From: Apostichopus japonicus
Lineage: Eukaryota; Echinodermata; Holothuroidea; Aspidochirotida; Stichopodidae
DNA: 64,000 nucleotides
Direction of reading: 5' to 3'
Assembly: GCF_037975245.1 (NCBI RefSeq)
Contig: NC_092561.1
Coordinates: 4,576,001-4,640,000 of the forward strand
Part shown: in pieces, positions 13,258 through 20,064 of the stretch
Position numbering within the stretch: the stretch's first letter is position 1
Layout of the letters: every line of letters starts with the position of its first letter
The notes under the pieces: generated by a model
What the model saw: the letters and a program-made list of their open reading frames with translations, nothing else
Told to the model about the DNA's origin: nothing
Databases searched by the model: none
Program-made: the position numbers and the translations under genes

Positions 13258-16200
13258 ATGATGGACGATGAAGACTATGGGGGCAAAGATCTTACTTCAA
13301 TCTTCAAAGGTAAGAAGATGTAACGATTGATATGGCCAAGTATAGGCCTATGTAGTGATCTATAGAGAAACTTTGACATAGGCTACACATATTTACTGCG
13401 ATAAATGTTACCTATAATTGCATGGTAAGCTCGGATGATATATGTTCTGTTATCTAACTTCATCCATTATCTTAACAAAACAGATGATGGTTTTCATATA
13501 TTCGGACTGTTCCATTTAACATTTGTATGTAGTCCTAAGTGTAGACAAATATATATGTGAGAAAGCAATGTATAATGACTACGAATAGTACTGTACAAAG
13601 TCAATGTGCAACGGGAAATCACTTTCATATTCCTATAAAAGTAAGCCTAGTTGTATGCTTCGAATAGTTATTTTTAGTTAATATTGGCTATTACCATTTG
13701 TGGCTCGTACGAAAATACGTTAGTAATGTCTCCGGCATGCATGATTGCTCTTGTTTGAAACTCGTTTAGTTTAGTTCCATGTTAGGTTATTTTTAGGTTA
13801 TTATTGTTATATATATATATATATATATATATATATATATATATATATATATATATATATATATATATATATATATATATATATATATATATACATATAT
13901 ATATATATATATATATATACATATATATATATATATATATATATATATATATATATATATCCCGTTGCATTCTGTTCCATTATCGGTGGAGGGTACCAAC
14001 CATACATGTACACTGTCACTATGATATTGTCCTCAAATCGATCTGAATTTGTATGGTTGCTGTGAACCGTTTCAGATCAAGTCATACCTAAATCAGATTG
14101 ATTTGAAATTAATAAATAAGAACGCCCATGCATTACACGGTTTACTTTATCCCGTTTCCATTTTGCACATCAGGTCGCTGTGCTGACATTACCAACATAT
14201 ACATTCCTAAATGCCGGTTTTCGAGGAACGATAATGCAGCAAGTCAAGGGGTTTGTGATTCTGCTGAAAAGTCTTCGGGAGGCGATGATCGTAGGGTTAG
14301 TGTCTGCAAAGACGTAACCCGTAATAATCGAAACCGCAAAACAAAGAAATCAAAAGAAATCGACGTGGACCAGTACAAAGATGAATTGCTGGAAACATAT
14401 TTTCAATACTACAGTAACTTGTGGTCAACATCCCAAAGAGAAGTGAGTTTTTTTATTCCATTTAATATTTGAAGAATGCTTTGTCAATGGGTAATTCGGC
14501 TTCTCAGTCCAGATATAATAATTATGTGACTAAATTTGATTCTATTACTGTTAATAAGGAAAGGCAAACATAGTCTTCCAACTTTATATGTACAGTGAAT
14601 ACACGTGTATTACCCTTTAATACCGTTTTGTCCTTTGAAAAGAAATTTGCACTTTGGCCAGTCTAAAATGTTTTGATGTCGCAATTTTCTCTTAAATGGG
14701 CAAAACAGTTACCGAGTGTTGTTTATAATATCTCCATGCAATTTTTTTAAGAGCTTTGCCTGGACAATTCAATTTCTGTTGGCAGAGATGTCAATAAGCG
14801 TTAATATTTATAAAGGTTGGAGTCTTATATATTCCTGCCTAGTAGTACGGTTATCCATATATAGGCCCAGTGGCGTAGGAAGTTACTTTTGAGTGGGGGG
14901 GGGGGGGGGGCTGAAGACTGATGGCCGGCCTAGGGGAGGGGTCTAAGGGGAATTTTTTTGCATTTCCAGGTGGCCTCAGATGCAATTTGGTGCAATATAG
15001 CACACTTCAGCACCCACTCCATTTTGTAAACTTAATTTTGTATTTTCACCTGGCCTTAGATGTAATTTGGTGCTCCAAATGAGATTTTTTTTCTCATTTG
15101 GAAATGAAAAAGTTTTTTTTTGACTTGCAAAGTGGGGGGGGGGGGGCGGAATGATACTTCCGCCCCTCCACATTTTTCTCTGGGGGGCTGGCGCCCCCAG
15201 CCCCCCCCCCCCCCCGGTTCCTACGCTCTTGTATAGGCCTACGGCCAGGGGCGGATTGGGTCTTAAAATCGGCCCGGGCATATTTCACCTAGACCGGCTC
15301 ATTATTCATTGATATGTTACTTACATAGATTGCCGTCCTTGGGGAGGAGTGTAAGGGAAGGGAGACACCCCCATTGAGATTTTTTTGAAGGAATGACTAG
15401 ATGCAAAATGGTGCTATATTTCTCAATTTTGTAGGTTACAAAATCCTTTCAAAAAGGCCCAATATAATTTCCCAGAAGCAACACTTGATTAAACTGAGAA
15501 AAGTTTAAACGTTAACAAAACTTGACAAAAATTTATGTTTTGAGACTGGATTTTAGTTAGTTTTTCAAACGTTTTGTGACAACATGCTTGAAAAAAAAGA
15601 GGAAAAGGGTATATAGTCCCCTACACTTACACATAGTGTTGTCGCCCTATTCAATTAGTGTGGGGATCTAATTCGCGAAATCGGTAAAACGGGGACAAAT
15701 ACTCAAAGTCGTCGACTTTTACATTCGTTTAATTTGATAACCAAACACCCTACTGTATGAGGGTCATTTTTATTCATACATAATCTCTCAGGACTTGGCT
15801 ATTAATCTAATCTAATAAGATTTTACAATTTTTTACTTCGTTTTCTGTAGGACGAAGTGCAGATTAATAAATTCTGTGTTCTCTCCTATTGCTATGTATA
15901 TGTCAGAATGCATTGGTCACCGTACTTGTATATCTTGTCGTTAATAAAAATATATGCACTGACGGGTTGCCAATAGCATGTTCTTTTGTTACGAACTAAC
16001 AGACTAACTAACATGGTGATTTCATGAGCTGATTACCACAGTTAAGAATACATTTCTACACAGCCCGTCTGTATTCTATTAACTGCTGTGAAAATGGACT
16101 GTAATTTTTACCAGGCTCCCCAGCCGACCGGCCCACCGGGCCACCGGCCCACCGGGCATTGCCCAATTGCCCGTGTGGCCAGTCCGCCACTGCCTACGGC

Positions 16201-19200: not shown

Positions 19201-20064
19201 ATAATGGATTCATTAGATGAGGTAGAAGGTACTCCTAAGCTACAGATAACATTGATGTTGTATTACGTCATGTCAAGTAACATGTTTGAGAGAATCCGAC
19301 AGTTATTAGAAGATGTTTGCAATGACTTGTCAATTAAGTTAGAGTGGGACACGATACAATATCATATGAAGGACAAAATGAAGAAGAGATTCACGGATGG
19401 TCTGACAGGTTCACAAGATGGTCCAATCAGGGTGGACAATGAAACATGCGAAAATCATTTAGAGAAGACAAACCTGCCGGCAGATCTGTCCGTGCATACT
19501 ACCAATGGTGGTAATAAAGGTATCTCATGTAGTCAGACCAATAATGATGATCTAGTCGATTGTCAACAAGTAATATCGGGAATGCTTCAAGATCTCCACA
19601 TTGCTGATGATGGAAATACAGAGGTAGATAAAACTGTGTCCTCAAGCTGTCAGAATACAGATGACAAAAATAAGGAAGCATCTTCCCGGACCTTACAAGT
19701 AGTCGATCAGCGAACATTCGCCGGCTGTGAAACATCGGTTTTAATATTCCTCGACCCGTTTGAGATGCGGCATTGGTTTCGTAGAGGAGATGGAACGGGC
19801 TCAGGATACCACAGTCTTATCTTTACACGATGTACAGGCCACTTCATTTTAATAACCTGGCCAAAAGACGAAGCTGGGTTGATGTGGGAGAAACATCTTG
19901 AAGAATACAGAGAAGAGGTAAACAGAAGCGATGCAACCGATAGCTACAAGTATGGGAGATTCCAGTACATTGCAGGTGGTCGGAAGGCACATTTTGAAAG
20001 TCCAAAGACTTGCCTCGATATGCTCCTTGAAGATAAATGTATGCACAATGTTCAAGTTGAATAA
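13258..20064 (+). CDS. NERD nuclease-like domain + SF1 helicase-like ATPase, copy A (5 exons)
   Basis: Exons: 13258-13309, 14174-14442, 16251-16332, 16625-16674, 17131-20064; phases join without a break to about 1,128 residues. The start has two adjacent ATGs ([11 protein letters not shown]). Residues 1-150 are charged and low-complexity, with an acidic [11 protein letters not shown] run. Residues about 314-394 look like a NERD (nuclease-related, PD-(D/E)xK-type) domain: E324 in GDIAEEEV, D373 in GEFD, then E387 and K389 in IIVEVKS. A SF1-helicase-like ATPase follows: NPEQESIV, Walker A GDYGTGKS (563-570), Walker B FFFDEF (D690, E691), YLWLSV, LNKVMR (768-773), and weak late motifs TFAGCET (1013-1019) and IFTRC (1048-1052). 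A cysteine cluster (818, 826, 828, 830) may bind metal. Predicted role: nucleic-acid-directed nuclease/ATPase. NERD-helicase fusions occur in prokaryotic phage defence; a defence role here is inference. No signal peptide or membrane helix was seen. Confidence 0.82.
13807..13962. repeat. (AT)n microsatellite, copy A
   Basis: About 150 bases of alternating A and T with rare C interruptions, in the first coding intron of the NERD-ATPase gene. The Ile-Tyr open frames on both strands are artefacts of this repeat. The equivalent tract in copy B (33620-33750) differs in length and includes (GT)n. Confidence 0.95.
14868..15231. mobile_element. Miniature hAT-like element, copy A
   Basis: The ends are CAGTGGCGTAGGAA on the left and TTCCTACGCTCTTG on the right (inverted match with a few changes). 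The element is flanked on both sides by the 8-base direct repeat TATAGGCC (14860-14867, 15232-15239), as expected for hAT insertion. The inside is non-coding with long G and C runs. It lies in an intron of the NERD-ATPase gene and was present before the duplication (34688-35032). Another copy with a different 8-base duplication is at 57473-57821. Confidence 0.88.
15246..16192. mobile_element. Second, different hAT-like element (947 bp), copy A
   Basis: The left end CAGGGGCGGATTGG and right end CCAGTCCGCCACTG form an inverted repeat with two mismatches. Both sides carry the 8-base direct repeat CCTACGGC (15238-15245, 16193-16200). It inserted just beside the previous element; its target duplication shares two bases with that element's. 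No transposase frame is visible, so it is non-autonomous. The right subterminal part has GGCCCACCGGGC-type repeats. Confidence 0.87.

Follow-up and report, generated by a model that had tools for sequence, protein, structure and literature searches.

An intron-bearing gene family in the holothurian Apostichopus japonicus encodes predicted NERD-like nuclease–SF1A motor proteins with a possible role in nucleic-acid defence

INTRODUCTION

What would an animal use a protein for in which a nuclease is joined on one chain to a helicase-like motor? The question is raised by a gene at 13261–20064 (+) of a 64 000-nt stretch of the A. japonicus genome (RefSeq assembly GCF_037975245.1, contig NC_092561.1, positions 4 576 001–4 640 000; referred to below as the window, in whose own coordinates positions are given). 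The gene is present in two tandem copies, A and B, and the protein of copy A is called the window protein. An earlier note, made from the letters of the sequence, had described a NERD-type nuclease followed by a divergent superfamily 1 (SF1) helicase-like ATPase. Here we establish how the gene is built, that it belongs to a family, which catalytic residues the members conserve and what folds are predicted, and we argue by inference that nucleic-acid defence is the likeliest function (probability about 0.5).

RESULTS AND DISCUSSION

Gene structure and motor domain

An open frame of 985 codons (17107–20064, +) holds every motif quoted beforehand, including GEFDILII and IFTRC; the order proposed in the earlier note (E/D/E-x-K residues, then Walker A and Walker B, in one long terminal exon) was confirmed in it. 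Copy A as a whole consists of five exons with GT/AG borders and encodes 1127 amino acids (Table 1); open-frame residue n corresponds to protein residue n+142. An ATG at 13258 is an in-frame alternative to the start at 13261. In a third close copy, located on contig C18, a 1-base gap destroys the equivalent of the former ATG while the latter is kept; comparison of exons 1–4 and the start of exon 5 of this copy revealed the same splice sites as in copies A and B. The frame is not a chance occurrence, since 21 long open frames in the genome share its motifs.

The motor carries the following motifs of superfamily 1A (SF1A): the Q motif, Walker A and B, the motif IV Arg, GxE of motif V and the motif VI Arg. 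All 21 members have the Q-motif Gln, the Walker A Lys, the Walker B Glu and the motif IV Arg; the motif V Glu and the motif VI Arg occur in 20, the exception being locus L020, where nuclease and ATPase residues are lost together. The late motifs (TFAGCET and IFTRC) had been taken for degenerate ones and the protein for a possible switch-type ATPase rather than a processive helicase; with the catalytic residues of both motifs retained and those of SF1A near-invariant, neither view is supported. The long Ser/Asn-rich linker noted ahead of these motifs does exist, is disordered and directly precedes lobe 2. A CxC...CxC motif, conserved in the family and located inside the motor between motifs IV and V, is a possible metal site; Cys 673 is present in 17 of 21 members, while the clade of A, B and the C18 copy lacks it (Arg in the window copy).

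The AlphaFold model of the motor has the UvrD-like fold of two RecA-like lobes, although only 355 residues could be aligned with UvrD 4c2t_A, a chain of 650; structural matches include UvrD, Rep, AddAB, AdnAB and FBH1. With sequence profiles, weak NERD- and SF1-like matches did appear among members, but the scores for NERD (window copy) and UvrD-helicase (two members) fell below Pfam cut-offs. Pfam UvrD-helicase matched 3 of 20 members, with a best expectation value (E) of 8.3e-4; the scores of two of these, 19.6 and 13.9 bits, are under the cut-off of 23. Whole-frame Pfam and PDB sequence searches of the window protein returned nothing significant, and a profile of the 20 members reached PcrA only at E 0.085.

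Nuclease domain

Upstream of the motor, the members follow the NERD catalytic pattern D...(E/Q)xK: D230 is present in all 21 members, E or Q at 244 in 20 and K246 in 20. The model of the domain contains the alpha-beta-beta-beta-alpha-beta core of the PD-(D/E)XK superfamily, and its closest solved folds by Z are CRISPR-ancillary nucleases of the Cdn1/Can2/Card1 type. Structure prediction agreed with both halves of the protein, with matches to Cdn1/Can2-type nucleases and to UvrD. Pfam NERD (PF08378) gave weak matches to 9 of 20 members (E limit 10; best value 5.6e-4), and a Viperin-associated NERD profile of PADLOC matched the window protein in the nuclease (E 0.0037). For a sequence profile of the nuclease, the only matches were two Dcp1 chains, at E ∼0.45.

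The NERD assignment of the earlier note is backed by the fold model, the D/(E,Q)xK residues and the weak Pfam match, whose score for the window copy lies under the curated cut-off. We read the domain as a putative metal-dependent PD-(D/E)XK nuclease of NERD type. The broader architecture, a NERD-like nuclease plus an SF1A core, is well supported.

An expanded gene family

With each of two tblastn queries, 39 stretches of the organism's genome (671.6 Mb in 35 contigs) matched. After merging, at least 21 loci had a single open frame of 700–1023 amino acids, distributed over 10 of the 35 contigs (four on C9; three each on C6 and C15; two each on C1, C2, C13 and C18; one each on C4, C7 and C22). 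Four further loci (C2:25.242 Mb, C7:16.440, C7:16.567 and C13:26.180) were split over frames, fragmentary or interrupted by stops, though a split frame may reflect an intron rather than damage; all locus counts are lower bounds. This is a real expanded gene family in this genome.

In an alignment of 20 rows (A1), the window protein shares 93% identity with copy B, ∼85–86% with the C18 copy and 19–28% with the other 17 rows. The broken C13 copy matches the C22 gene over three pieces of 87–97% identity. In 11 of 20 rows, inspection by eye showed a splice acceptor AG no more than 12 bases ahead of a conserved Cys; these 11, at least, are thus genes with several exons rather than retrocopies. In L015, L018 and L019 the open frame starts at or within the nuclease. 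Before about residue 195 the L019 frame resembles an intron; L019 was for this reason omitted from alignment A3 but kept in A1 and in the residue counts, so its motif I letter is doubtful.

Two members are unusual. L020 (G000:C15, 877 kb) retains a long open frame and has lost both the nuclease and the ATPase residues, a natural double-dead protein that hints at a link between the two activities. L036 654–3182 (G000:C18, 4.807 Mb) is very divergent, with GVPGSGKT as Walker A, EE in Walker B and another Cys pattern.

Sequence evolution

Copies A and B differ at 103 of 2931 sites of exon 5 (3.5%), at 66 of 2512 intron sites (2.6%) and at 30 of 833 sites of the 3′ flank. The protein is thus changing about as fast as the introns, which indicates fast evolution, relaxed constraint or both. 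Ratios of non-synonymous to synonymous change (dN/dS) were computed by NG86, with few changes per segment, without a significance test and with a probable intron included in the L019 rows. For the whole frame of exon 5, the A versus B ratio was 0.63, and nine close comparisons in five groups ranged from 0.28 to 0.76. By segment, the nine comparisons gave 0.10–0.51 for lobe 2, 0.32–1.01 for the nuclease and 0.23–1.98 for lobe 1; for A versus B the values were 0.25, 0.32 and 1.22, respectively, and 1.73 for the N-terminal part. Over all 1127 codons, where A and B differ by 77 amino acids, dN was 0.030 and dS 0.044.

Relation to known systems

PADLOC profiles were compared with 20 members at E up to 1, with match ranges for ten members. 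Nhi matched 10 of the 20, AbiO 7, mad8 5, NERD+UvrD 4, RT-associated NERD-helicase 4 and the GajB models 1 each. The five Nhi matches with ranges cover 39–60 residues around the Q motif and Walker A, and a few other profiles match in the nuclease. In the literature, NERD is listed both for Mokosh I and for Nhi-like systems (PMC10952713); Nhi is described as a nuclease-helicase encoded by a single gene and dependent on the phage SSB for its action (PMC12904381); and the animal group III Schlafens are laid out as a nuclease plus an SF1-like domain (PMC8875196).

Nhi and Nhi-like proteins, AbiO and NERD+UvrD share with the present family a nuclease and an SF1-like motor on one chain; unlike them, this family is animal, intron-bearing and multi-copy and has an additional N-terminal region, the Cys cluster and the long linker. 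UvrD, PcrA and Rep have the same two RecA lobes and the same catalytic residues of motifs Q, I, II, IV, V and VI, but neither the Cys cluster nor a nuclease fused in front. The likeness to Gabija is that a GajB model matches L017 at 6.1e-6 over 98 residues and that chain B of 8sm3, taken as GajB by its length, matches the full model at 3.6e-5. The Gabija nuclease GajA, however, is a separate OLD-type TOPRIM protein, whereas here the nuclease is NERD-like and on the same chain as the motor. Cdn1, Can2 and Card1 resemble the family in the nuclease fold; they have a CARF sensor but lack a helicase.

No relative was confirmed among 230 viral and 582 prokaryotic stretches found in genome contigs with the family profile and a single P-loop pattern. 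In tblastn searches L017 had no match among plasmids and L036 one at E 9 only, and the window protein reached only E 6 among phages. These results give no support to a recent transfer from any of the prokaryotes or phages sampled. Among the matches listed from titles and abstract starts of the open-access PMC literature, no animal NERD-helicase family was described; the family may well exist elsewhere in animals as unnamed predicted proteins.

Proposed function

We propose that the family serves innate nucleic-acid defence in a way similar to bacterial Nhi or Gabija. Behind a fast-changing and partly disordered N-terminal region, the UvrD-like SF1A ATPase/translocase core would bind single-stranded or end-containing nucleic acid; ATP would drive its movement along the nucleic acid or a change of shape, and this action would bring the preceding NERD-type nuclease to its target or release it. 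The nuclease would thereby cut nucleic acid that is foreign or aberrant, be it DNA of viruses or transposons, or RNA. Expansion, fast evolution and likeness to Nhi, AbiO, NERD+UvrD and Gabija make such a role plausible. More tentatively, such single-chain NERD-nuclease/SF1-helicase proteins may form, in some animals, an extensive and rapidly evolving repertoire directed against foreign DNA or RNA; this would be an innate immune effector class that we did not find described, acting in the manner of bacterial Nhi or Gabija. If so, a nuclease-motor class would be added to animal innate immunity, and a further case in which a bacterial-style defence architecture was kept or reinvented in animals. 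The proposal is directly testable, as the catalytic residues are clear and mutable.

Several observations weigh against this proposal. For the nuclease, the motif I acid is absent in 4 of 21 members, the window domain scores 18.8 bits with Pfam NERD against a curated cut-off of 22.1, and Foldseek with the nuclease alone gave no match at E ≤ 0.001 (best, SduA at 0.0029 and an R2 retrotransposon protein at 0.0033). The full AlphaFold model has a predicted local distance difference test (pLDDT) score of only 69.4; superfamily 2 helicases match the whole model in Foldseek as well (WRN, 4.2e-5), with low template modelling (TM) scores of 0.14–0.26 by query length. Other P-loop families match as well: Pfam AAA_22 (8 of 20 members; best 1.7e-4, ahead of UvrD-helicase), nSTAND_NTPase5 (8 of 20), PADLOC mad8 (5 of 20) and NCBIfam DnaI (4 of 20), and the short Nhi matches appear to indicate an SF1-like P-loop rather than Nhi membership. 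Moreover, expansion and fast evolution occur in non-immune families too, and relaxed constraint is possible for A and B given the ratios of 0.63 for exon 5 and 1.22 for lobe 1.

Alternative explanations

Four alternatives were considered, in declining order of probability. First, the proteins could be enzymes of DNA repair or recombination: like AddAB/RecBCD or Dna2, they would act on host DNA that is damaged or undergoing recombination and would play no part in immunity. The structural matches agree with this idea, as UvrD, Rep, AddAB, AdnAB and FBH1 are all repair or recombination motors; yet core repair enzymes are mostly single copy, and a set of 21 or more divergent copies, with broken ones in addition and a quickly changing protein, would be unusual for them. 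We consider this explanation unlikely.

In the second alternative, the proteins would work on tRNA or viral RNA in the manner of group III Schlafens (SLFN11, SLFN14), either in RNA-directed restriction or in the control of translation. This idea draws on the best Foldseek match of the full model, which is to a group III Schlafen. The nuclease of Schlafens, however, is the Schlafen core, and here it is of the PD-(D/E)XK NERD kind; six of seven VIA alignments with Schlafens have a root mean square deviation (rmsd) near 14 Å, and the Schlafen core family is not among the Pfam matches listed (25 of 43 families, 20 members). Neither of two programs placed a Schlafen chain among the 50 matches listed for the nuclease alone, though a Schlafen match further down is possible. 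On balance, we hold a Schlafen-like role to be quite unlikely. SLFN14 residues 401–906 (linker and helicase) align, with high rmsd, along NERD and motor of the whole model, and five of the seven Schlafen rows pair the model from residue 72/73 onward with Schlafen from ∼401 onward. The Schlafen linker may thus be distantly akin to a NERD domain; the idea that it is a worn NERD domain finds no backing among the nuclease-only matches listed.

Third, A and B could be decaying duplicates under relaxed constraint in an otherwise functional family. In favor of decay are the exon 5 divergence, which is not below that of introns, the high ratios of lobe 1 and the N-terminal part, the weakened exon 2 donor of copy B and the missing Cys 673. 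Retention of long open frames and of the counted catalytic residues in all three close copies, together with the low A versus B ratios of the nuclease and lobe 2, makes decay improbable in our estimation. Finally, a domesticated or still mobile element whose copies spread within a transposon would fit the presence of copies on 10 contigs and the recent origin of some dispersed ones (C18, C13/C22), but it is very improbable in view of the common multi-exon structure and splice sites, the location of A and B in a segmental duplication that includes kilobases of flank, and the low identity of 17 of the 19 other rows, which shows no burst; nucleic-acid defence remains the preferred reading.

Tandem duplication and neighboring genes

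Table 1. Positions of exons, domains and the duplication unit in the window
Feature	Position	Strand	Remarks
Exon 1, copy A	13261..13309	+	Donor gtaaga; kept in copy B and C18 copy
Exon 2, copy A	14174..14442	+	N-terminal region without recognised domain; AG/GT borders, open frame, kept in three copies
Exon 3, copy A	16251..16332	+	Acidic; kept in copies A, B and C18
Exon 4, copy A	16625..16674	+	Kept in copies A, B and C18
Exon 5 (terminal), copy A	17131..20064	+	Nuclease and motor; stop TAA; 985-aa open frame from 17107
NERD / PD-(D/E)XK nuclease domain	17542..18156	+	Open-frame residues 146-350
Nuclease residues	17650; 17794; from 17836; 17956	+	E182 (motif I); D230; E244-V-K246; Q284
RecA-like lobe 1	18301..18906	+	Q405 (Q motif); GDYGTGKS Walker A 18364-18387; FFFDEF Walker B 18736-18753; W589
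Motif IV Arg	18994..18996	+	R630; present in 21/21 members
Cys-cluster region	19123..19179	+	C675, C685, C687, R691
Disordered Ser/Asn-rich linker	19381..19680	+	Residues 759-858; pLDDT <50
RecA-like lobe 2	19681..20061	+	Motif V TFAGCE with G873/E875; motif VI FTRC with R908
Exon 1, copy B	33095..33143	+	Matches copy A exon
Exon 2, copy B	33993..34261	+	Donor gtgatt, weaker, where copy A has gtgagt
Exon 3, copy B	36042..36123	+	Matches copy A exon
Exon 4, copy B	36418..36467	+	Matches copy A exon
Exon 5, copy B	36924..39857	+	Intact paralogue
Tandem duplication unit A	8998..23354		Self-BLAST; partner blocks inside 24315-43176, 95.4-98.0% identical

Copy B spans 33095–39857, and the two copies are arranged head-to-tail in the duplication. 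About 4.4 kb at 27240–31658 is found in unit B only, with the flanking blocks adjoining in unit A; it is probably an insertion. Dense tandem repeat arrays are located at 4385–5273 and 52225–52639, the latter readable on either strand as a long open frame of repeats. Pieces of Cys-loop (neurotransmitter-gated ion channel) genes at 51233–54177 and 59346–60656 (−), with one Neur_chan_LBD and two Neur_chan_memb matches, are probably two genes; their vicinity is an additional pointer to the animal origin of the locus.
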